A stretch of 33,046 nt of DNA from Deltaproteobacteria bacterium (GTDB lineage Bacteria; Myxococcota_A; Polyangia; JAAYKL01), in the NCBI GenBank assembly GCA_030595125.1, contig JAUVDV010000059.1, positions 1-33,046 of the forward strand, read 5' to 3'. Below are positions 2,185-33,046 of the stretch, piece after piece. The translations under genes and the position numbers were made by a program. Position 1 is the first letter of the stretch. Each line of letters opens with the position of its first letter. The notes under the pieces are model-generated. The model had not been told where the DNA came from. It searched no databases and worked only from the letters and a program-made list of their open reading frames with translations.

Positions 2185-2865
2185 ATGTCCCTCTATCGCA
2201 ACCCTGGGGAACGGGCCAGTGAGGCGGTCACCTTCAGATTGACAGTGAACGAGAAGCGCCTTCTCGATCACCTCGCCTTTCGCGCGGAGACAACCCTCAC
2301 TGACCTTTTCAGGGATCTTCTCGCGCAAAGAGCGCGGGAAATCGAAGTGGAGGAGCTTCCTCCCGAGCCCGTTCGCAGGAGGCCGGGGCGTCCCAGAAAA
2401 ACCCCGATTGAAACAAAAACGGCAGTCCCCGCGACGCCGCTCACACCTGTCAGTGAACCGGAGGAGGATGTGAACGCTCCCATGGCGACCTTCGGCGAGC
2501 TCGTCGAGGGTTTTCGTGGGCACTTCTCGGACAGGGCGGAAGGTACGCGCAAGGAACTGGACGAGGCCATCCGGTATCTGCGGGACAATACTGCCCTCAC
2601 TGCTCTTCTGCGCAGAAACATGCCGCTTTCGGATTTGACATCCGACAGGCTCGCCTCGGTTCGCGACGCCATGAAGAACATGGAGATGAGGTTTTCAAAG
2701 AGAAATCTGCACCTCACCTACCTGAGGATGATGCTCCAGTGGGCCATGCGGCAACCGGACGTCACATTAAATATTGACCCGAAGACGGACCTGGAAGCAT
2801 TTTCTATAAAGGAGATCTCAAACGCTTGGCCGGGCCCCCTTGGGACTGAACGGAGGTCGACATGA
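2185..2865 (+). CDS. RHH-like / AT-hook protein with integrase core-binding-like C-terminus
   Basis: A 226-residue protein. Residues 11-50 look like a ribbon-helix-helix type DNA-binding segment (VTFRLTVNEKRLLDHLAF). Residues 66-72 (RPGRPRK) form an AT-hook. A Pro/Thr linker leads to residues 101-195, which resemble the SAM-like core-binding domain of tyrosine recombinases (PLSDLTSDRLASVRDAM, then a helix with LQWAMRQ). No catalytic domain follows. The start is fixed by in-frame stops just upstream. No Shine-Dalgarno is visible before the ATG, so translation may be leaderless. The stop overlaps the next gene's start (ATGA, 2862-2865), implying coupling to the lipoprotein downstream. It is most likely a small DNA-binding regulator; the function is inferred. 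Confidence 0.75.
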   Translation: MSLYRNPGERASEAVTFRLTVNEKRLLDHLAFRAETTLTDLFRDLLAQRAREIEVEELPPEPVRRRPGRPRKTPIETKTAVPATPLTPVSEPEEDVNAPMATFGELVEGFRGHFSDRAEGTRKELDEAIRYLRDNTALTALLRRNMPLSDLTSDRLASVRDAMKNMEMRFSKRNLHLTYLRMMLQWAMRQPDVTLNIDPKTDLEAFSIKEISNAWPGPLGTERRST

Positions 2866-3563
2866 TCAGTTTAAAAGTCCGACATGGAATTTCAATTCTC
2901 GTCGTCATTCTCTCGACGTGCCTGGCCTCTTGCTGGATAGAACAGGCGGTAGTATGGGGCGGGCCGACCGATACCGATGCGGACACGGACACGGACGCGG
3001 ACTCTGATTCGGACACGGACGTGGACTCTGATTCGGACACGGACGCGGACACCGATTCCGACACGGATACCGGTCCGGTGGATTGCGAGGAGATCTCGGA
3101 TCACTGCTGCCACGAGGACTGTCCGTGCGCCGATGACGATTTTTCACAGTGCGTGCTCACCGAATGGAGCTGGGAGGACGGTATGCTCGGGGTCTGCAAG
3201 GAGCCGGTTCCGGACGGAGGCGCCTGCTGGGGGATCGCCGATTGCTGGCTTCCCGAGCATGTGTGCATGGACGTGTTCGTATGCGGGTGCGACGTCCTCT
3301 GCTATGAAGAGGATTACTATGGATACTGCGTTTCCGGCATCGACGCTTGTTGCGATTCGTCATCGGGAAACACGTGTCCGGAGGGATACTTCTGCATGCC
3401 CTTTGCCGACGGTTTTGACGTATGTCACGCTGAGTTCAACGACAATCTTCAGTGCTGGACCGACGACGACTGCGCCGGCGGCATGGGCACCTGCGAGGGC
3501 GCTTTTTTACACAGTTGCAACGAGTACGGTTTCTCGACCGTGGGGCATTGCGACTACGATTAG
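2862..3563 (+). CDS. Cys-rich lipoprotein with Asp-Thr/Ser stalk (paralogue of 15500-16186)
   Basis: A 233-residue protein. The signal peptide ends in the lipobox LASC with Cys24. An Asp-(Thr/Ser/Ala) stalk (about residues 36-70) precedes a domain rich in Cys (CCHEDCPC, CGCDVLC, CCDSSS). The start has a good ribosome binding site, GGAGGT at 2852-2857, and shares ATGA with the upstream regulator-like gene. The whole protein is homologous to 15500-16186, including the signal peptide. Compared with that copy it lacks two Cys near the C-terminus (His217 and Gly223 stand in their places). The domain is not one I can name. It is probably displayed on the outer membrane. It converges with the next gene, with only 4 bp between stops. 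Confidence 0.88.
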   Translation: MISLKVRHGISILVVILSTCLASCWIEQAVVWGGPTDTDADTDTDADSDSDTDVDSDSDTDADTDSDTDTGPVDCEEISDHCCHEDCPCADDDFSQCVLTEWSWEDGMLGVCKEPVPDGGACWGIADCWLPEHVCMDVFVCGCDVLCYEEDYYGYCVSGIDACCDSSSGNTCPEGYFCMPFADGFDVCHAEFNDNLQCWTDDDCAGGMGTCEGAFLHSCNEYGFSTVGHCDYD

Positions 3564-3567
3564 TGGT

Positions 3568-4554
3568 CTAAGGACAATTAGCAGGAACCGGCGTGCACGA
3601 GTCGTCGAGGTTGTCGTGGACACTTATCGAAGTGGGGGCGGTAGTAAGTTGGTCCAGAAGATCGCACACCTCGCAGTCGGGAAGAACGGCGTTGCCCCAA
3701 ATACTCAAGTCTCCACCCACCGAGGTGAGGGCGCCAAGTTCATCCAGGTTGGTTAGGGCGGTGTTGCCCCAAATATCCAGATTCCCACCCAACGAAGTTA
3801 TACCGTTCAGCCCGCCCAGATTGGTGAGGGTGGCGTTCGCGGCGATATTCAAATCCGCGCCCACCGAGCCGGTGATGCCACTCAGGCCGTTCAGGTTAGT
3901 GAGGGCGGCGTTAACGGCAATTTGCAATTCCACACCTACCGAGGTGAGCCCGGTTAGCCCGTCCAGGTTGGTGAGGGCGTCGTTCCCGATGATATTCAAT
4001 TCTCCACCCACCGAGGTGAGCCCGGTCAGCCCGTCCAGGCTAGTGAGGGCGTCGTTGTAAGCGATGTTCAAGTCCAAGCCCACCGAGGTGATGTTGCTGA
4101 GTCCGACCAGGTTGGTTAAGGCGTCATTGTAGCTGATCCACAGTTCAATGCCTACCGAGGTAAGGCAAATCAACTCGCTCAAGTCTGTGCATAAAGGGCA
4201 ATTGATATGCAGGTTTTCCCAGACCGAGGTGTATCCCACGAGGGTTGCAACATCCGATTGCGTATCGATGGTGATATCGCCGCCGTACTCCCCGTTAGGG
4301 CAATCGGTGTCAGTGTCGGTGTCAGTATCGGTGTCAGTATCGGTGTCAGTATCGGTGTCAGTATCGGTGTCAGTATCGGTGTCAGTATCGGTGTCAGTAT
4401 CGGAATCTGTATCAGTGTCTGCATCGGAGTCGGAGTCAGAATCGGAGTCAGTGTCGGAGTCGGTGGTTCCACTTTCGTCGCCGCCCGACGAGCTTTTCGA
4501 GCACCCACCGCAAGCCAGCACGGTCGCAAGCATCATCAGAAGCAAGTATCGCAT
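3568..4554 (-). CDS. Lipoprotein with Asp-Thr stalk and LRR-like repeats
   Basis: A 328-residue protein. The start was chosen at the ATG at 4554 because it gives a clear lipoprotein signal (MRYLLLMMLATVLAC, then GGC) and follows an AAGGATGGGG ribosome binding site; the longer frame upstream is antisense to another gene. Cys15 or Cys18 is the lipidation site. A long Asp-(Thr/Ser) stalk is encoded by a 12-bp minisatellite. The rest holds about seven units of 23-24 residues with the pattern LTSVGxxLxIxxNDALTNLDGL, resembling leucine-rich or receptor-L-domain solenoids. Such solenoids usually bind proteins or sugars. It ends in a short Cys-containing cap. Ligand unknown. Confidence 0.9.
   Translation of the reverse strand: MRYLLLMMLATVLACGGCSKSSSGGDESGTTDSDTDSDSDSDSDADTDTDSDTDTDTDTDTDTDTDTDTDTDTDTDTDTDTDTDCPNGEYGGDITIDTQSDVATLVGYTSVWENLHINCPLCTDLSELICLTSVGIELWISYNDALTNLVGLSNITSVGLDLNIAYNDALTSLDGLTGLTSVGGELNIIGNDALTNLDGLTGLTSVGVELQIAVNAALTNLNGLSGITGSVGADLNIAANATLTNLGGLNGITSLGGNLDIWGNTALTNLDELGALTSVGGDLSIWGNAVLPDCEVCDLLDQLTTAPTSISVHDNLDDSCTPVPANCP
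4309..4404 (-). repeat. 12-bp coding minisatellite in lipoprotein stalk
   Basis: On the plus strand the unit gtcagtatcggt occurs six times perfectly at 4321-4392, followed by an 11/12 match (4393-4404) and preceded by a copy with one change (4309-4320). The unit encodes Asp-Thr-Asp-Thr in the minus-strand lipoprotein, so gain or loss of units changes stalk length without a frameshift. Confidence 0.9.
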
Positions 4555-5060: not shown

Positions 5061-5732
5061 GTGATGGTACCTCTTTATATGGGAGCGAACCGCGATAGGT
5101 GCGAGAGGATGGCCGATACGATGCGGCGTGTGGACTCTGACGTAGTACGATTGACGCCTCGTACGTATACCGATCGGGAGATCGTTGATGGAATGCTGCG
5201 CGGAGAGCCTGCAGCTGCGGCGGCCCTTATCGATCGTTTCGGCCCGGCGGTCGACCGGCGAGTCTGGCGGTTGCTCGGCGCCGACGATGAGCATGAGGAC
5301 ATAGTGCAGCAGGTGTTCACCAGGATCCTGGAGTCTATCCCCAGGCTCCGAAACCCGGATGCCCTTGAGGACTGGATCTCCGCGATCACGGTCAACTCGG
5401 TGCGCAAGGAGTTGAGGAAAAGGCGGTATCGCCGAATGTTTTTGGTCGCGAGCGTAGAAGATGAGCACGGACACGCGCCGGCGAGCCAGGAGACCATGAT
5501 GGTCCTTCGGCGGGGCTTCACCATACTCGACAGGATGAAGCCCGATGAACGCATCGTATTCATCATGCGCTTTGTGGAAGGATCCGATCTCTCCGAGATC
5601 GCCACCGCCACCGGGCGGTCGCTTGCCACGGTGAAGAGGCATATCAGTCGCGCCAGAGATACGTTCCTGAAGAAGGCGGCGCGCGATCCGGTACTTGCGT
5701 CATTTCTGGAGGAGAGGGTTGATGAACGATAG
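5061..5732 (+). CDS. ECF-type RNA polymerase sigma factor (sigma-70 family)
   Basis: Up to 223 residues. Region 2 is visible as LIDRFGPAVDRRVWRLLGA, then EDIVQQVFTRILESI and a DWISAITVN stretch. Region 4 is visible as a helix-turn-helix (LSEIATATGRSLATVKRHISRAR) near the C-terminus. The reading could begin at the GTG at 5061 (GAGG just upstream) or at the in-frame ATGs at 5064, 5079 or 5109; the conserved part starts well after all of these. The last 11 bases overlap the FecR gene, a sign of translational coupling. It probably directs RNA polymerase to a regulon controlled by the adjacent FecR protein. Which genes it controls cannot be read from the window. Confidence 0.92.
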   Translation: MMVPLYMGANRDRCERMADTMRRVDSDVVRLTPRTYTDREIVDGMLRGEPAAAAALIDRFGPAVDRRVWRLLGADDEHEDIVQQVFTRILESIPRLRNPDALEDWISAITVNSVRKELRKRRYRRMFLVASVEDEHGHAPASQETMMVLRRGFTILDRMKPDERIVFIMRFVEGSDLSEIATATGRSLATVKRHISRARDTFLKKAARDPVLASFLEERVDER

Positions 5733-7023
5733 AACGCGAATCGCGGAGCGAATTGGTCAGGTTCTGGACGAGGGTCTGGGTCCGTCGCCGGGCGAGGAGT
5801 TGCTCGAGCGGCGAAAGCGCGCGCTGGTCGCCTACGTTGCCGCCCGGCCTGTCTCGAACCGGTTAAGATGGGGGCGTCTCGCGGGCGTGGCCGTCGCCGC
5901 CATGGCGCTGCTGGCGCTGGTCGGCACGCTCGTGATGTCGCTTCGACCATCATCGCTGAGTTTTACGATCGGTGAACAGGGCGCGCCGGCCCGGGAGGGC
6001 GTCTGGGTTCGAAGCGGTGCGAACGAGCGGGTCTCCATCGATTTCGAGGACGGCAGTCGCTTTGAGCTCTACGATCGGAGTTCCGCTAGGGTGGTGGAGG
6101 CGACCTCAGCCCGAGTGCAGCTCGATCTCAATAATGGCGTTGTGCACGCTCGGATCGAGGGCCGAGAGAAGGCGAAGTGGGTTGTTCGTGCCGGCCCGTA
6201 TCAGGTTACTGTCCTCGGTACGGTGTTTTCAGTGAGCTGGCACGACGAGTCGGGAGATCTGCAAGTAGAGGTGGACAAGGGGCGCGTCTGGGTCGAGGGC
6301 GCAGAGTTGGGCGAGAGCGGCGTCACCCTGGAGCCAGGATACATTCTGCAAGCGGACAGCGCGCAGGGTCACGTGATTCTACGGTCTTCGCCGACCGAGC
6401 CTGCCGTGAAGGAAGTGATCGGTGAAGTATCACCGGCGCATGATGGGGATGAATCGGATCTCAGTCACGATATGATTGGTGGTGACGCGAGCTCCGAGGA
6501 CCATGAGGAGCCGGCCACAGAAGAACAGAGAAGGGATCGCGGGCGAACTGCCGAACAACGACCGGTCTGGCAGATCCTTTGTGAGGCTGGAGACCTTCGA
6601 GGGGCCGTGGCCGCCGCAGAGCAAAGCGGGCTCAGTGAAGTTGTGCAGCTGGCGGACATGGAGACGTTGTGGAAGCTGGCAAAAAACGCCCGATACGGCC
6701 GGCGTCCGTTAAGTGCAGCACAGTTGCTCGAAGGGATCCGGGCGCGGTTCCCCACCTCAGTCAGAGCGCGGACAGCAGCGTACTTGCTGGCCCGGCTCGC
6801 GCTGGACTCGAAACGTAACCCGGAGGAGGCGCGACGTTGGCTCCGGATATATCTGAAAGAGGCGCCCGGAGGCGCGTTCGCGGGCGAGGCCCTCGGGCAC
6901 CTCGTCGAAGTCTGCACCTCCACCGGGCGAGACGCCGAGGCTGCCTCGACTGCTCGAGTCTATCTGGAGCGGTACCCGCAGGGACCGTTCTGTGCGCGTG
7001 CACGGGAAGTGCTGGAGCGTTGA
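5722..7023 (+). CDS. FecR-domain membrane protein with TPR-like C-terminus
   Basis: A 433-residue protein. The ATG at 5722 follows GGAGAGGG and overlaps the sigma-factor end by 11 bp. Residues 1-50 are cytoplasmic and basic; residues 52-73 form one transmembrane helix. A FecR domain follows (about residues 95-195: ANERVSIDFEDGSRFELYD, GPYQVTVLGTVFSVSW, VEVDKGRVWVEG). After an acidic linker the last 150 residues are helical repeats resembling TPR or YbgF/BamD-like modules (RYPQGPFCARAREVLER at the end). By family knowledge it is a sigma regulator that senses a periplasmic or outer-membrane signal. No TonB-dependent receptor gene is nearby. Confidence 0.92.
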   Translation: MNDRTRIAERIGQVLDEGLGPSPGEELLERRKRALVAYVAARPVSNRLRWGRLAGVAVAAMALLALVGTLVMSLRPSSLSFTIGEQGAPAREGVWVRSGANERVSIDFEDGSRFELYDRSSARVVEATSARVQLDLNNGVVHARIEGREKAKWVVRAGPYQVTVLGTVFSVSWHDESGDLQVEVDKGRVWVEGAELGESGVTLEPGYILQADSAQGHVILRSSPTEPAVKEVIGEVSPAHDGDESDLSHDMIGGDASSEDHEEPATEEQRRDRGRTAEQRPVWQILCEAGDLRGAVAAAEQSGLSEVVQLADMETLWKLAKNARYGRRPLSAAQLLEGIRARFPTSVRARTAAYLLARLALDSKRNPEEARRWLRIYLKEAPGGAFAGEALGHLVEVCTSTGRDAEAASTARVYLERYPQGPFCARAREVLER

Positions 7024-7057
7024 GCGGCGATCGCACTTCCCCAAAGGAGCGGGCATC

Positions 7058-8137
7058 GTGACCCGCCCGTGGATAGTCATAATCACTCTGATCTCGATCA
7101 TGCCGTGCGCGGTTTCGACTTCCCATGCGCAGGATTCCACCGAAGGTTCTCCTGCGGTCGGAGGTGTCGTGCTTGTCAGCATGACCGGCTGTTGTCCGGA
7201 CGAGGCCTGGCCCGAAGCGGAGCGGGCGCTTGTCGACGAACTCGCGGTGCTCGACATTCCGGTGATCGTTGCCTCCGGGGCGGCCATCGGCGATCGCGAT
7301 CGGCGCCGAGAGCTGGAGGTGCTTGCGCAATCGCGAGACGCGGCTGCGGCGATGCGAATCGTTCGACCCGAAGAGGGGATGATCGGCGGTGTTGAGTTGT
7401 GGCTCACCGACCGGGTCACCGGCAAGACGATCTTTCGTCACCTGGCCCAGGGAGATTCGAGAGGAAAGGACGCTGCGACGATCATCGCCGTGCGCGCTGT
7501 GGATACGCTTCGAGCCAGCCTTCTCGAGTTGCGGATCCGGGGACGGCGGCAGCCCGAAGTCGAACCTTCCGTTGCGATCGCTGAATTGGCAGAGGATACG
7601 CCCCTGGAAACCGACACCTCGCGCACCGTCGGGATTGCAGCCAGGGGTGTTGTTCTAGGTTCACCTGGCGGCGCCAGGGCCCGGGGAGGCTTTGCGGTCG
7701 GACTCGGCTGGCATCCGGCTACATGGGGGGGCGTGGAGCTTGACGGACTGTGGGCGCCGTTGGGCCGTGATATCTCGACCAGCGAGGCCAGCTCGTCTAT
7801 CGATGTGGCCTTGCTTCGCGGCTGGTTTGTCTGGCACGTGCGAGACGAGGGCTTCGCGCGCCCGTCGTTGGCCCTGGGCGGCGGCGCATTATTCGTCTGG
7901 GGAGAGGGTCTCCGGGCGGACAACGCTCCTTTGCGCTCGGACTACACCGTTGTCGGTTACGGGGGCATCGCGGCGCGCCTGGATCTGGTCTTCACCGAAC
8001 GGCTACGCCTGTTTCTCGGCGGTCGGGTCGGTCTCGCCATCCCCGAGGTACGGCTGTTTCACGGAACGCAGGAGGCGGCAAGCCTCGGCCGGCCGCTGAT
8101 GGAGGGCTCGCTTGGTCTTGAGATACGAATTCCATAG
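7058..8137 (+). CDS. Exported protein, probable outer-membrane beta-barrel at C-terminus
   Basis: A 359-residue protein. The GTG at 7058 was chosen because AAAGGAG (7044-7050) lies at the right distance and a clean signal peptide follows (cleavage after SHA, residue 24). The first 150 mature residues look like an alpha/beta domain (VVLVSMTGCCPDEAWPEAER, VELWLTDRVTGKTIF) of a kind found in helper proteins that bin Myxococcota FecR loci; I cannot name it. The C-terminal half alternates short amphipathic strands with Gly turns (GGFAVGLGWHPATWGG, RLRLFLGGRVGLAIP) and ends in an aromatic-free strand, as in small barrels. Its position 34 bp after fecR suggests it is the outer-membrane partner of the FecR signalling pair. 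Confidence 0.85.
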   Translation: MTRPWIVIITLISIMPCAVSTSHAQDSTEGSPAVGGVVLVSMTGCCPDEAWPEAERALVDELAVLDIPVIVASGAAIGDRDRRRELEVLAQSRDAAAAMRIVRPEEGMIGGVELWLTDRVTGKTIFRHLAQGDSRGKDAATIIAVRAVDTLRASLLELRIRGRRQPEVEPSVAIAELAEDTPLETDTSRTVGIAARGVVLGSPGGARARGGFAVGLGWHPATWGGVELDGLWAPLGRDISTSEASSSIDVALLRGWFVWHVRDEGFARPSLALGGGALFVWGEGLRADNAPLRSDYTVVGYGGIAARLDLVFTERLRLFLGGRVGLAIPEVRLFHGTQEAASLGRPLMEGSLGLEIRIP

Positions 8138-11580: not shown

Positions 11581-12666
11581 ATGATAAAAAAAACACCTGA
11601 CATTGTTAGTATTCACGTGATTTGCCAGGCCGTTCTGATCATGGCCTGCTGGTTCCATCTGGGCTGCGAGGCTGCCGGCACACCGGCCAACGGCGACACC
11701 GACGGGGACTCCGACACCGACGGGGACACCGACACCGATTCGGATGGCGATAGCGACACCGATTCGGATAGTGACCTGGAAGATAACCCACAGAATATTC
11801 TGGTTATTGATTTTCGTTCCGGTTGGTGGTCGGGAGGTGGAGGAACCCTGTTTATGGATTTGAACGACGGTTGTATCGCGCTGGAAGTAATGGCGAATAC
11901 ACGTGATGATATCACTGTCGAATATCACCATTTTCAAAAAACCAAGAGAATCAACTGTCTTTACTTGCCGGGCGAGAACCCCCAGTGCAGTGAACATGAC
12001 GGCAGTTTCGTAGGTATTTCATATGAAGAACTCATAGGGTTTTTCGAAAATGATTGGGAAGACTATACACAGTTCTGGTTCCTTTCCGGATCAGACATGG
12101 ATCCGGACGACATCCAGGTAAGTGACCAGCTATTTGTCAATATTATTGATGATACGATGGAACTGTGCACTCCAATCCTCCTCGGCGCGGGAGATGGATT
12201 CATCGACCATGCAAATGTCATAAGCCAGGGGCTTGGAATGGGCGATACCATGACAACGGAGCTTGCCTCGCCGGGCTTCTTCATATTCATGCAAAATGGT
12301 TCGACGGAAACCTATATGGAGATGGACCAGGAGCTTCAACCGCATCTCTTGTTCGATGGTGTTACAGAAATTGCAGATACATTATCCAATTTCATCGATC
12401 AAACCGTACATGGCGATTCTCTCCTAGAGAGTACTTTCTACGAGGTTATTGCCCACGACACGGATGGGAGACCGGCGATAGCTGTAGGCGAGACCCCGTC
12501 GTCGGTGGGCGAAGAAGAGCCGCGCCCGATTATTCTGGATTCCGGCTGGCAACGTTTCTACTCTCTCGGGATCCCTGAATCCGAAAACGAAGGTACTCAG
12601 ATGTATCTTCAAAACCTCGTTATATATCTGTCCGAACACGGCTGCCACGCGCCTGTGGTGGAATAG
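11581..12666 (+). CDS. Stalked lipoprotein with unrecognised C-terminal domain
   Basis: A 361-residue protein. The ATG at 11581 follows GAGGGAAG. The signal peptide ends HLGC (Cys29) followed by EAAG, the same module as in the neighbours at 9845 and 13318. An Asp-(Thr/Ser/Gly) stalk follows to about residue 63. The C-terminal 300 residues have no motif I can place; stretches such as LGAGDGFIDHANVIS and RPIILDSGWQRFYSLG, and a final NLVIYLSEHG, are weakly reminiscent of Rossmann-like or glutamine-amidotransferase-like (ThuA-type) folds. The domain-coding DNA is visibly more AT-rich than its neighbours. The stop is 10 bp before the next ATG, so it probably belongs to the same transcript. Confidence 0.88.
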   Translation: MIKKTPDIVSIHVICQAVLIMACWFHLGCEAAGTPANGDTDGDSDTDGDTDTDSDGDSDTDSDSDLEDNPQNILVIDFRSGWWSGGGGTLFMDLNDGCIALEVMANTRDDITVEYHHFQKTKRINCLYLPGENPQCSEHDGSFVGISYEELIGFFENDWEDYTQFWFLSGSDMDPDDIQVSDQLFVNIIDDTMELCTPILLGAGDGFIDHANVISQGLGMGDTMTTELASPGFFIFMQNGSTETYMEMDQELQPHLLFDGVTEIADTLSNFIDQTVHGDSLLESTFYEVIAHDTDGRPAIAVGETPSSVGEEEPRPIILDSGWQRFYSLGIPESENEGTQMYLQNLVIYLSEHGCHAPVVE

Positions 12667-12676
12667 GGGATTATCA

Positions 12677-13306
12677 ATGACAATAAATTTACCCGGCGGA
12701 GCCAATTTATCACTAATCGCGTTACTTATTGCTGTCATGTTCGTCGGTTTTTCCTGCGCCGATAGTGTCGTCGATGCAAATGCCGACGACGACGCTTCCG
12801 GCGATACGGACAGCGACAGCGATTCGGACAGCGACAGCGATTCGGATAGCGACAGCGATTCGGATAGCGACTCAGACACGGATACTGATACTGAAACCGA
12901 TACGGACACTGATACTGGAACAGATACAGGCACTGATACTGGAGAAGATACGGGCACCGATACGGACACAGACTGTGCCGGCGTGCTCGAGGGCGGCGCC
13001 TGCTGGTACCTGGGAGTGCCGGGTCAGAATTGTACCACGGTGTGCAGCAGCCACGGTGGCTACGATACAGCGACGCTGACTTACGCCGGCAGCGGCGGGA
13101 CCATGGCCAACTGCACGGCGGTGCTGTCTTCACTGGGTGCGGGAGGAATTCCCTCCACTATAGAGATCACCGGCTATGCCTCCGGGGTGGGTTGCGTCTC
13201 GGCCGCGTGGACCATCCCCTCGATGTGGGCGTGGGTGAGCGATCCGGTTACCACCGAGGGGGGCGCCGACGCGGACGGTTCCCGCGCTTGCGCTTGCGAC
13301 AACTGA
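12677..13306 (+). CDS. Stalked lipoprotein with Cys-rich CWYLG domain, copy 2
   Basis: A 209-residue protein with a signal peptide ending GFSC (Cys27), unlike copy 1. The stalk has two parts: Asp-Ser repeats, then Thr-Asp-Thr-Gly repeats. The C-terminal domain is near-identical to copy 1 at 9258 (GVLEGGACWYLG to SRACACDN). One Cys in copy 1 is Gly201 here (ggt at 13277). As in copy 1, the stop is followed by GGAGG and a lipoprotein with an LGCEAA signal, so the two pairs form a segmental duplication. A 42-bp segment at 12961-13002 is repeated exactly at 14518-14559. Confidence 0.9.
   Translation: MTINLPGGANLSLIALLIAVMFVGFSCADSVVDANADDDASGDTDSDSDSDSDSDSDSDSDSDSDSDTDTDTETDTDTDTGTDTGTDTGEDTGTDTDTDCAGVLEGGACWYLGVPGQNCTTVCSSHGGYDTATLTYAGSGGTMANCTAVLSSLGAGGIPSTIEITGYASGVGCVSAAWTIPSMWAWVSDPVTTEGGADADGSRACACDN
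12809..12862 (+). repeat. 18-bp coding repeat in lipoprotein stalk
   Basis: GACAGCGACAGCGATTCG occurs twice (12809-12826, 12827-12844) and once with one change (12845-12862). It encodes Asp-Ser repeats in frame. Confidence 0.85.
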
Positions 13307-13317
13307 GGAGGACTAAC

Positions 13318-14433
13318 ATGAAACCAAACACTACATATTCCCACATGATTGGCTGGGCGGCCTTGGTCGCGGCTTGCTGGTTTCATTTGGGCTGCGAGGC
13401 TGCAGACAATTCCGTTAAATACAGCGATAGCGATACGGATACAGATTCCGATACCGACACGGACGCCGATACCGACACGGATGCCGACACGGATTCCGAC
13501 GGTGACTCGGACGCGGACGGGGATGGAGGACCTATCGAGATGGACTGCTCGAACTGTCCCGCTGTGGGACCGTCACTCGACAACATGGTCTGCTCCATCG
13601 ATCTGTGCGACGTTGGTGTAGTAGCCCAGCAGGAATATTCCAGCCCGATGCCCCTCGTCAACTGCACCCTCGAGGACACCTACGAGGCGGTGAATCACTT
13701 CGGTAGCGTGAGTAACGGCCTCGCGCCTTTGCTCAATAATTCGTACGCGCTCATGGCGAGCGGGTTGGCTACAGGCACGGCTCATACCACATCGTGCTGC
13801 GATGACATGCTGTCCGGTTTGCCAGATCCATGGAGTTCGGATGGATACGATACCTACGACGTGATCGAGTGGAAGCTCACATTGAAGGCGCCTGCGGAGG
13901 CCAAGTCGTTCAGGTTCAAGTATGTGTTCTTTTCCGAGGAGTACGATGAGTTCATTTCCACTGAGTTCAACGATAGGTTCTACGTCATCCTCGAGGCGAC
14001 AAGCACCGACGGGGGGCAACCGAAGGTCATCAACTTCACCGAGTGCCGCGAGCCGAGTGTCTATCACGATTTCATCTGCCAGGTGGGCGACACGGGCTGC
14101 GATGTGGGCGAAAAGTACTGCTACATAGCCATCAATACCTCGCTGTCCGACTGCTGCTGGTACAACGGATGCCCGGACGGGTACAGTTCCGCAGTGGGCA
14201 CCGACATCACCGGCACCGGTTACGAGTGCGTCGCGAATGAGTTGGACGACTGGGACATATATGGGTCGTCAACCGGCTGGCTTAAAACTGCGTGGCCGAT
14301 CGATGGCGACGAGGTGTTTGTTCTCACTTTCCACATTCACGACACAAGCGACGGGATTTTCGACTCGCAGGTCATCCTCGATTCTTTCGAGTTCCTGAAG
14401 GACGCAGAGCAGGGAACGACCCCAATCGAATAG
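13318..14433 (+). CDS. Stalked lipoprotein with choice-of-anchor-L domain
   Basis: A 371-residue protein. The ATG at 13318 has GGAGG at 13306-13310 and gives the signal peptide WFHLGC (Cys26) followed by EAAD; the longer frame upstream overlaps the previous gene. An Asp-(Thr/Ser/Ala) stalk runs to about residue 68. The rest matches the choice-of-anchor-L domain: LAPLLNNSYALMASGLATG, then FRFKYVFFSEEYDEFIS, EFNDRFYVILEATS, and a C-terminal FILTFHIHD-like stretch with VFVLTFHIHDTSDGIFDSQV. Such domains sit in surface or secreted proteins with varied anchors. Several Cys may form disulphides. Position in the tandem mirrors the IgGFc-like gene at 9845, with the same signal and leader but a different domain. 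Confidence 0.92.
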   Translation: MKPNTTYSHMIGWAALVAACWFHLGCEAADNSVKYSDSDTDTDSDTDTDADTDTDADTDSDGDSDADGDGGPIEMDCSNCPAVGPSLDNMVCSIDLCDVGVVAQQEYSSPMPLVNCTLEDTYEAVNHFGSVSNGLAPLLNNSYALMASGLATGTAHTTSCCDDMLSGLPDPWSSDGYDTYDVIEWKLTLKAPAEAKSFRFKYVFFSEEYDEFISTEFNDRFYVILEATSTDGGQPKVINFTECREPSVYHDFICQVGDTGCDVGEKYCYIAINTSLSDCCWYNGCPDGYSSAVGTDITGTGYECVANELDDWDIYGSSTGWLKTAWPIDGDEVFVLTFHIHDTSDGIFDSQVILDSFEFLKDAEQGTTPIE

Positions 14434-14474
14434 ATTCCGTCAAAGAGGCCTGAAGAAAACAGGTATTGGCAGAA

Positions 14475-14560
14475 GGAGAGGCGAAGGGATGACCACGGCG
14501 AGAAATCATAGCATACCTACGGACACAGACTGTGCCGGCGTGCTCGAGGGCGGCGCCTGA
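14475..14560 (+). pseudogene. Chimeric remnant of a CWYLG lipoprotein gene
   Basis: The bases 14475-14492 match 9244-9261 exactly, including ribosome binding site and start codon. The bases 14518-14559 match 12961-13002 exactly (end of stalk plus GVLEGGA). Between them is a short unrelated join. The result is a 23-codon ORF (ATG at 14489, TGA at 14558) encoding MTTARNHSIPTDTDCAGVLE and then GGA. The signal peptide, the stalk and nearly all of the domain are missing. It looks like the product of internal deletion or recombination between paralogues. It may still be translated, coupled to the gene at 14581. Confidence 0.8.
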
Positions 14561-14580
14561 TGACAAGAAAGGAAGAGGAA

Positions 14581-15378
14581 ATGAAAGAACAGCGAAATAT
14601 CCTTCACATTGTACTTGCGTTGCTCTTTGTCGCAGGCTGTGGATCCAGCCCGCCGACGATGGCTCCGGGCGGAGACGCCGGGTACGATTCCGGTCCGGAT
14701 GCAGACACGGATAGTGACTCTGATTCCGATACCGATACGGATACGGACACCGATAACGATACCGACTCCGACACGGATGGGGACTCGGACTCGGATTCGG
14801 ATACCGATCCATGCGATATTGATTGGCTGGCGGATTTCGAGGCGGACGACGGGCAGATGGTGGAAGATCCCACCGATAGCTTGTGGGAATGGGGAGCGAT
14901 CGTCGCGGGAGCGCCGGAGGAAGGTCACGGCAACGTGTGGGCCACCAACTTGTCGGGCGACTACGGGGTCTGCGACTCGGCATTCCTCACGTCTCCGGCA
15001 TTCGATCTGTCTGAATGTGGCGGCCTTACCCTGAGCCTCGGTTTCGACATTTGGTATGAATACGAGGGTGACTACGGCAACTGGGACGGCCTCCTGGTGG
15101 AGTTCTACGACGGAAGCCAGTGGGTGCAGATCGATCCCGATGGGGGATGGGACGCCGCTTCGATCAACGCGCACCAGCAATGTGACGGAACAACGCCCTA
15201 TATAGACGGCAAGCCGGGGTTCACGGGCGAGAGCGGCACATGGGTATCCAAGCTGTTCGAGTACGCGCCCACCGCCTTCTCGTCAGAGTTCAGGTTCAGA
15301 TTCGCCCACGGGACCGACGGCATGTCATACTATTTCGCGGGCGCATATATCGACAACCTGAGCTTGACCTTCCAGTAG
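14581..15378 (+). CDS. Stalked lipoprotein with MAM/choice-of-anchor-J-like beta-sandwich
   Basis: A 265-residue protein. The ATG at 14581 follows AAAGGAAGAGG; an ATG at 14560 is in frame but has no good ribosome binding site. The signal peptide ends FVAGC (Cys20). A Gly/Pro segment and an Asp-(Thr/Ser) stalk run to about residue 77. The C-terminal part (WLADFEADDG, SLWEWGAIVAGAPEEGHG, CDSAFLTSPAFDLS, LVEFYDGSQWVQI, SEFRFRFAHGTDGMSYYFAG, YIDNLSLTF) has the order of MAM or choice-of-anchor-J beta-sandwiches that bind sugars or proteins. The immediate upstream DNA is the remnant at 14475-14560. Assignment of the fold is by motif order only. Confidence 0.85.
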   Translation: MKEQRNILHIVLALLFVAGCGSSPPTMAPGGDAGYDSGPDADTDSDSDSDTDTDTDTDNDTDSDTDGDSDSDSDTDPCDIDWLADFEADDGQMVEDPTDSLWEWGAIVAGAPEEGHGNVWATNLSGDYGVCDSAFLTSPAFDLSECGGLTLSLGFDIWYEYEGDYGNWDGLLVEFYDGSQWVQIDPDGGWDAASINAHQQCDGTTPYIDGKPGFTGESGTWVSKLFEYAPTAFSSEFRFRFAHGTDGMSYYFAGAYIDNLSLTFQ

Positions 15379-31995: not shown

Positions 31996-32068
31996 GCCAA
32001 CATAGCTCAGTTGGTAGAGCAGCGCATTCGTAATGCGCAGGTCTTCGGTTCGAGTCCGATTGTTGGCT
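31996..32068 (+). tRNA. tRNA-Thr (anticodon CGT)
   Basis: A 73-base cloverleaf: acceptor GCCAACA/TGTTGGC, D-arm with AGCTCAGTTGGTAGAGC, anticodon stem GCGCA/TGCGC with loop TTCGTAA (anticodon 32029-32031), T-arm with GGTTCGAGTCC. The 3' CCA is not encoded. It serves as the likely integration site for the element to its right. Confidence 0.95.
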
Positions 32069-32072
32069 CCGC

Positions 32073-32114
32073 AAAGGCCCGGAAAACAAAGAGTTTTTCG
32101 GGCCTTTCTTTTTT
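32073..32114 (+). terminator. Rho-independent terminator after tRNA-Thr
   Basis: A 15-bp stem AAAGGCCCGGAAAAC with loop AAAGA and GTTTTTCGGGCCTTT, followed by CTTTTTT. One G-T wobble pair is present. It should stop transcription before the integrase region. Confidence 0.88.
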
Positions 32115-32138
32115 CTGCCTCTTGCCGATCACCCTCCA

Positions 32139-32255
32139 TGGGGCACTCATGGGGCAATTAACCACAATCAACCACAACAAGACCTTCGGAAACCCGCTCG
32201 TGGGGCACTTTTGGGGCACATTACCCCATGATTACCCCATGGCGAAATGGGGTAA
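32139..32255. repeat. 11-bp-phased TGGGGCA/TTACCCCAT arrays near the integrase
   Basis: TGGGGCA starts at 32139, 32150, 32201 and 32212, each pair 11 bp apart. TTACCCCAT starts at 32221 and 32232, again 11 bp apart, with the inverted copy ATGGGGTAA at 32247-32255. AACCACAA occurs at 32160 and 32170, 10 bp apart. Such helically phased short repeats beside a tyrosine integrase gene resemble arm-type integrase sites. The rest of 32069-32370 holds no gene. Confidence 0.7.
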
Positions 32256-32315
32256 CTGTTTCTGCCCGTTATTATTGGCTTTTCTCGTTTAGACCTGCTG
32301 ATTGTTAGTTTTGGG

Positions 32316-32344
32316 TTGTGGAAAACCGGCTGTTTCGCTACCAT
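32316..32344 (+). promoter_or_regulatory. Promoter for the integrase gene
   Basis: TTGTGG (32316-32321), 17 bp, TACCAT (32339-32344), 26 bp before the integrase ATG. Confidence 0.5.
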
Positions 32345-32370
32345 TTTGGGATAGCTTAAAGGAGGGGAAC

Positions 32371-33046
32371 ATGCCGACAATTGAAAAAAGAGAAAGCCAA
32401 GACGGAGATATCTCCTACCGCGCATCGGTGCGTCTGAGAGGCCATCCCAAGCAGTCGGGGACGTTTAAACGCCTCTCCGACGCGAAGAAGTGGGCGCAGA
32501 AAACCGAGGCCGAGATCCGCGACGGCAGGTACTTCCCCGCGAACGCCGCCAAGAAGCACACCCTGGCCGAGTTGATCGAGCGCTACAAGCAGGATGTGAT
32601 GCCGAACAAGAAGCCCGGCAGCGTGCGATCTCAGGACGCACAGCTCGACTGGTGGAGCGATAAACTCGGAGAGTACACGCTGGACAAGATCACCCCCGCC
32701 CTGATCGCGGAGTACCGCGACAAGCTGGGCCGGAAAAAATTGAAGAAAGGGACAAGGCGATCGGCGGGAACGGTGGCGCGGTACATGGCGTCGCTGTCCC
32801 ACGTGTTCACGGTGGCCATGAAGGAGTGGCAGTGGGTGGAGGACAACCCGTTCCGTCGCGTGACCAAGCCGAAGGAGCCCAGGGGGGTGGTTCGGTTCCT
32901 GAGTGACGACGAACGCAAGGCGCTGCTCAAGGCGTGCAAGAAGAGCAGCTCGAAAGATCTTTACTGCGCGGTGGTGATCGCGCTGTCGACCGGATGCAGG
33001 AGAGGCGAACAGATGAACCTGCGCTGGTCGCACGTGGATCTGAAAC
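32371..33046 (+). CDS. Partial tyrosine recombinase (integrase)
   Basis: The frame is open to the window end (225 codons so far), so the 3' part is missing. GGAGGGG precedes the ATG. Residues 1-60 form the N-terminal arm-binding-like part (YRASVRLRGHPKQSGTFKRL). Residues 64-160 are the SAM-like core-binding domain (LAELIERYKQDVMP, GTVARYMASLSHVFTVAM). The catalytic domain begins with RFLSDDERKALLKAC, and the first catalytic Arg (Arg210) is in LSTGCRRGE. The remaining catalytic residues lie past the edge. It would catalyse integration and excision at tRNA-Thr. The element extends to the right, so its cargo is not visible. Confidence 0.95.
   Translation, partial: MPTIEKRESQDGDISYRASVRLRGHPKQSGTFKRLSDAKKWAQKTEAEIRDGRYFPANAAKKHTLAELIERYKQDVMPNKKPGSVRSQDAQLDWWSDKLGEYTLDKITPALIAEYRDKLGRKKLKKGTRRSAGTVARYMASLSHVFTVAMKEWQWVEDNPFRRVTKPKEPRGVVRFLSDDERKALLKACKKSSSKDLYCAVVIALSTGCRRGEQMNLRWSHVDLK

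Follow-up and report, generated by a model that had tools for sequence, protein, structure and literature searches.

An 11-bp-spaced repeat array between a tRNA-Thr gene and an integrase gene is very probably the left end of a genomic island

Introduction

What are the short, regularly spaced repeats that crowd 117 bp between a tRNA-Thr gene and an integrase gene in a deltaproteobacterial genome? The window examined here, 33,046 nucleotides in length, is the whole of contig C195 of genome G000 (assembly of 5.39 Mb). The initial annotation had reported three repeat pairs at 11-bp spacing, an inverted copy and a pair at 10-bp spacing, each of which was found in place, and had read the entire array as the arm-binding region of attL.

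It is already known from Cluster K phages, including CrimD, that integrase arm-type sites stand in pairs to either side of a core within a tRNA-like gene and that the arm words drift with the N-terminal residues of the integrase (PMC3203893). No description of the spacing of the integrase group studied here was found among the open-licence papers listed.

Results

The tRNA-Thr(CGT) gene, identified with ARAGORN at 31996..32070 on the plus strand, is the target site, and the element regenerates its 3' part. It is followed by an intrinsic terminator with a 15-bp stem (32073..32107, plus strand). The anticodon loop, TTCGTAA, comprises the seven bases 32027-32033, and the att core in attL (32026..32071, plus strand), a 46-bp exact direct repeat with positions 231-276 of contig C199, starts one base 5' of this loop. 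Further downstream, direct reading and a repeat search located copies of CATGGGGCA at 32137 and 32148, within which the word TGGGGCA occurs at 32139 and 32150; these two words, 11 bp apart, form the putative attL arm pair (32139..32156, plus strand; +112/+123 from the loop). Two copies of AACCACAA, 10 bp apart, follow at 32160 and 32170 (32160..32177, plus strand) and have an inverted counterpart in attR. A second TGGGGCA pair at 32201..32218 (plus strand), read directly and by repeat search as copies of TGGGGCAC at 32201 and 32212 with a spacing of 11 bp, provides additional putative Int-type sites. An inverted TGGGGTA pair, 11 bp apart, occupies 32220..32241 on the minus strand, at -149/-138 relative to the start of int, and is a candidate int operator; the repeat search gave ATTACCCCATG at 32220 and 32231 and the inverted TTACCCCAT at 32221 and 32232. 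The array ends with a single TGGGGTA site, ATGGGGTAA (32247..32255, plus strand), an inverted copy that forms a 9-bp inverted repeat with 32232-32240.

The adjoining gene encodes the N-terminal 225 codons of a tyrosine integrase (32371..33045, plus strand, ATG at 32371). Since the window is a complete contig, the protein is cut at residue 225 where the gene meets the contig edge, and a search of the rest of the assembly did not recover its C-terminal half. Matches were obtained to PF00589, Int_N and the phrog_1 integrase, in keeping with a gene adjoining an att site; the N-terminal part of the protein had no Pfam hit. The nearest solved chains include the HP1 integrase (1aih) and 5c6k, which is labelled only 'Integrase' and which we take to be the P2 integrase. 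A word of the P2 arm sites is TGTGGACA; none of the open-licence papers listed for it was, by its title, about P2 or arm sites. The window integrase in this respect resembles the P2/HP1 type (IntP2 subgroup, PMC8138268), a likeness that covers the core-binding and catalytic parts only and makes it, by sequence matches, a candidate member of that subgroup.

The initial annotation had proposed looking for a right end bearing a copy of the tRNA 3' end and the same repeats, and both were located within C199:93-276 of the same genome. There, C199:231-276 is an exact 46-bp copy of the 3' part of the tRNA-Thr gene that runs from the anticodon loop to the first base after the gene, and is preceded by 230 bp of C199. 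The same TGGGGCA pair is present 5' of this attR core, as TGGGGCACTCATGGGGTA at C199:94-111, and TTGTGGTTGATTGTGG, at C199:197-212 near the core, is the inverse of the AACCACAA pair, whose whole inverted counterpart occupies C199:197-216. ARAGORN found no whole tRNA at the C199 right end. Both att sites lie at contig ends, attL on C195 and attR on C199, and no contig joins the two.

Several other features were observed on C199. A-tracts recur every ~10 bp at C199:122-180, in the stretch that separates the attR arm pair from the core, and are possibly intrinsically bent DNA. Just to the right of attR, two adjoining genes (C199:635-2437 and 2501-3592) encode products that by eye are lipoprotein-like, with long Thr-Asp runs and, after these, leucine-rich-like and FG-GAP-like repeats. 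A dispersed repeat, CTTCATAGCTCGCGACAGCGAGCGACGAAG (C199:285-331), has several copies in the genome and lies 3' of attR in G000 and 3' of tRNA-Thr in the sister genome G002.

The right arm also has two decayed copies that lack the core, at C199:487-538 and C199:3848-3887. The latter has a counterpart at the orthologous place in G002 (contig C342, locus L041, 494-599), so that this copy is older than the split of the two species. The decayed copies are probably scars of earlier insertions at this tRNA. The tRNA-Thr region of G002 matches the window at 89.6% as far as the end of the tRNA and no further, and G002 had no integrase match at 1e-20. The G002 tRNA-Thr is a candidate empty site, but because its C199-like downstream flank includes the dispersed repeat, this counts as weak support.

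Both ends were found for five elements, on a single contig in G005, L017 and L015 and on separate contigs in G000 and L010. The integrases of the four relatives are 51-69% identical, and their targets are tRNA-Thr, tRNA-Met, tRNA-Asn and tRNA-Phe, one each. All five elements carry a pair of the same word, in the same orientation and with 11-bp spacing, in both attL and attR, although the word itself varies between elements. Relative to the first anticodon-loop base, the attL pair is at +112/+123 in G000, +113/+124 in G005, +112/+123 in L017, +103/+114 in L010 and +92/+103 in L015; the attR pair is at -138/-127 in G000, -138 (degenerate)/-127/-117 in G005, -137/-126 in L017 and L010, and -173/-162 in L015. 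The right pair is near -138/-127 in four of the five, with L015, ~3.4 turns off, as the exception. Once G000, G005 and L017 had revealed the spacing rule, the right end of L010 was sought and fitted it; that of L015, sought after L010, had the pair and broke the rule. Searches for the right ends of L014 and L073 did not find them, the L014 search matching its own tRNA only. The repeat begins 0-2 bases before the anticodon loop in every one of the five elements, which suggests that loop as the place of strand exchange; on this comparison, we infer that the crossover of the window element maps to TTCGTAA.

From loop to loop, the elements measure 5.5 kb (L017), 9.9 kb (G005, with a repeat of ~90 bp that by eye has two differences) and 24.3 kb (L015). 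The G005 island (contig C234, locus L064), which uses the same tRNA-Thr, carries genes at 5231-8014, 11802-13157 and 13243-14727 whose products are an NB-ARC protein, a SIR2-like protein (PADLOC: PDC-S25, LmuA, ThsA) and an AlbA_2/Fic-like_C protein. This cargo looks like a small defence-type set.

The genome collection held nine relatives of the integrase with 46-57% identity, of which only L012 lacked the repeat pair; another, 69% identical, was found in G005, of the same family. One further relative is on a Legionella plasmid, and distant ones occur in phages, plasmids and viral contigs. When the viral contigs were scanned with only the window integrase as the query, no relative appeared. 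Across 19 stretches from 16 loci, taken upstream of int or at att, there were 28 offset-11 repeats of at least 6 bp, a few of them low-complexity or unrelated words, compared to a mean of 2.0 and a maximum of 8 in 300 local shuffles. At offset 10, the same stretches had 16 repeats (shuffle mean 2.05, maximum 7). No offset-11 pair of at least 6 bp was present in L012 or L071, and L070 had a 10-bp pair only. The viral set of 21 loci included 16 with usable upstream DNA; in six of these 16 a family-type word was repeated at offset 11, two of the six (L076 and L077) being nearly identical. The total of nine repeats in these 16 loci, against a control mean of 2.7, equals the maximum of 9 in 500 controls, and the viral set supports the pattern more weakly than the genome set. 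The words were TGGGGCA in the window, L011 and L068, CGGGGCA in G005, TGGGACA in L010 and L018, TGGTGCA in L014, L015, L072 and L073, TGGCACA in L017 and L080, and GTGGACA in L013 and L016. Relatives with intact integrases keep the arrays, where the initial annotation had allowed that relatives of a non-mobile remnant might lack them.

The pairs differ in the gene to which their position is tied. The tRNA-proximal pair starts 47-72 bp past the end of the tRNA in eight of the nine loci with an adjacent tRNA end (in L011 this end was recognised by eye, ARAGORN having found no gene there), and L076 has one exact site 76 bp past the tRNA end. Of 17 loci, eight have a second pair that starts -159 to -149 from int; in L014 it starts at -126, and the other eight lack it. 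In G005, the second pair adjoins int, 3.2 kb from the tRNA, and cargo lies between the two pairs, which indicates that the second pair follows int. These positions suggest that the array splits, one pair travelling with the tRNA and the other, ~150 bp before int, travelling with int. The attL arm region of the initial annotation was accordingly divided: the attL arm site proposed there, linked to the core, most likely corresponds to 32139-32156, whereas 32201-32255, which is int-linked, at a near-fixed distance in about half of the loci, may be mainly an integrase operator.

Discussion

Judged from sequence comparison, the array is very probably the left end of a genomic island in tRNA-Thr, its repeats serving as docking sites for the integrase. 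The right end on C199, with the 46-bp core and the same pair, and the layout conserved in relatives support this reading.

That the repeats arose by chance, or are a dispersed repeat of this genome, is an explanation to which we give almost no credence. The array holds three runs of at least 7 at offset 11 in 117 bp, whereas 5000 shuffles of the 117 bp gave one run in 290 cases, none in 4710 and two in no case at any offset from 6 to 20. Multi-run segments do occur elsewhere: when a 117-bp frame was slid along the window, 31 of 1647 segments, the array itself included, had at least three runs at one offset; repeated codons in genes would be a source of the others. The run count alone is consequently not unique; the specific word pair is. 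With up to 3 mismatches, ATGGGGCACTCATGGGGYAATT is matched five times across the 5.39 Mb of the genome, twice in the array and three times on C199. The two decayed right-arm copies on C199 would suit a dispersed repeat, but all five matches are confined to the tRNA locus and the 3.6 kb next to its right end, and the layout is kept in relatives of other groups. In our view, the two-ended elements refute this explanation. It is also improbable, though less extremely so, that the 11-bp pairs are sites for an excisionase (directionality factor). Such factors bind head to tail to repeats one turn apart: Apl of phage 186 occupies five direct repeats at att that are spaced 10-11 bp, and other factors do likewise (PMC7498355). 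The repeats studied here share with the Apl arrays a direct orientation and a spacing of one helical turn at att sites; a difference is that here the word flanks the core and is also found beside int. The 10-bp AACCACAA pair, present at both G000 ends, would suit an excisionase. Against this assignment of the 11-bp pairs stand the same word near int and at both ends, and a distance from pair to crossover that hardly varies among four of the five elements, whose words differ. Nine small ORFs of the complete G005 element, scanned from among the many listed, included no convincing Pfam excisionase match; this counts weakly against it, since the ORF judged by eye to be the likely factor in L017 had no match either. 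The AACCACAA pair, which is not conserved in those arrays of relatives that were read, may bind an excisionase or a bending protein, or may itself be a bend; compared by eye with the IHF consensus, it did not fit.

A nearly even prospect is that 32201-32255 is only an int operator or attenuator, acting through autoregulation or a transcript hairpin and lying outside the recombination site. The near-fixed distance of the second pair from int, its retention beside int in G005 and a terminator-like hairpin at 32232-32255 favour this, as does KplE1, where IntS and TorI, acting at attL, repress intS; among tRNA-linked integrase genes, 61.5% were predicted to have an attL that overlaps the promoter (PMC2951348). 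KplE1 attL (IntS-TorI) also resembles the window in its order of tRNA, arm sites and int, with the sites between att and int, but its words and integrase differ. However, the pair is missing from that position in 8 of 17 loci, and operator and recombination roles can coexist. Moreover, since a search for a sigma-70-like promoter at 32060-32400 found none, autoregulation in the window, as opposed to KplE1, is something that we infer.

We hold with considerable confidence that the array is the element side of an attL site whose arm pairs would be held by Int, with additional pairs that probably repress int. The catalytic part of the integrase would exchange strands in the anticodon loop TTCGTAA, while its N-terminal part would hold the two TGGGGCA pairs that flank the core, one pair 112-123 bp rightward of the crossover in attL and the other 127-138 bp leftward of it in attR. 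At 11-bp spacing, the two words of a pair face the same side of the DNA. By analogy, the core would be held by the C-terminal domains of Int and the arm pair by the N-terminal domain (PMC8138268, PMC3203893), and looped DNA would bridge arm pairs and core into an intasome. Through the same-word sites nearer int (32201-32255), the integrase would probably repress its own gene, as in KplE1, and these sites may also join the attL complex. The layout resembles that of attP in CrimD and other Cluster K phages, where arm-site pairs also flank a core in a tRNA-like gene; in CrimD, however, the left and right pairs face opposite ways and tmRNA holds the core, whereas in the window element both pairs point the same way and the crossover is in an anticodon loop (PMC3203893).

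A broader generalisation, that this integrase group combines a near-rigid arm-to-crossover ruler with freely drifting arm words that follow integrase residues 5-6, is offered tentatively and is rather doubtful. The correlation was drawn by eye from ~15 integrases with relatedness ignored. E5K6 accompanies TGGGGCA or CGGGGCA in four integrases and TGGGACA in one; E6 after Q or E accompanies TGGTGCA (n = 3), Q5A6 or Q5K6 accompanies TGGCACA (n = 2), and D/N5-K6-H7 accompanies GTGGACA (n = 2). No clean class was apparent for L018 (K5E6, TGGGACA), L068 (E5Q6, TGGGGCA) or L072 (T5Q6, TGGTGCA).

A pattern spotted by eye has become two mapped island ends, and core-linked and int-linked sites can now be told apart, a distinction that is testable. 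For this integrase group, the comparison provides a rule for finding ends in fragmented genomes: a same-word pair at 11-bp spacing flanks an anticodon-loop crossover, roughly 90-125 bp to its right and usually 125-140 bp to its left. If the residue correlation were true, arm recognition would follow a readable code, and arm sites, and hence island ends, would be predictable from the protein.
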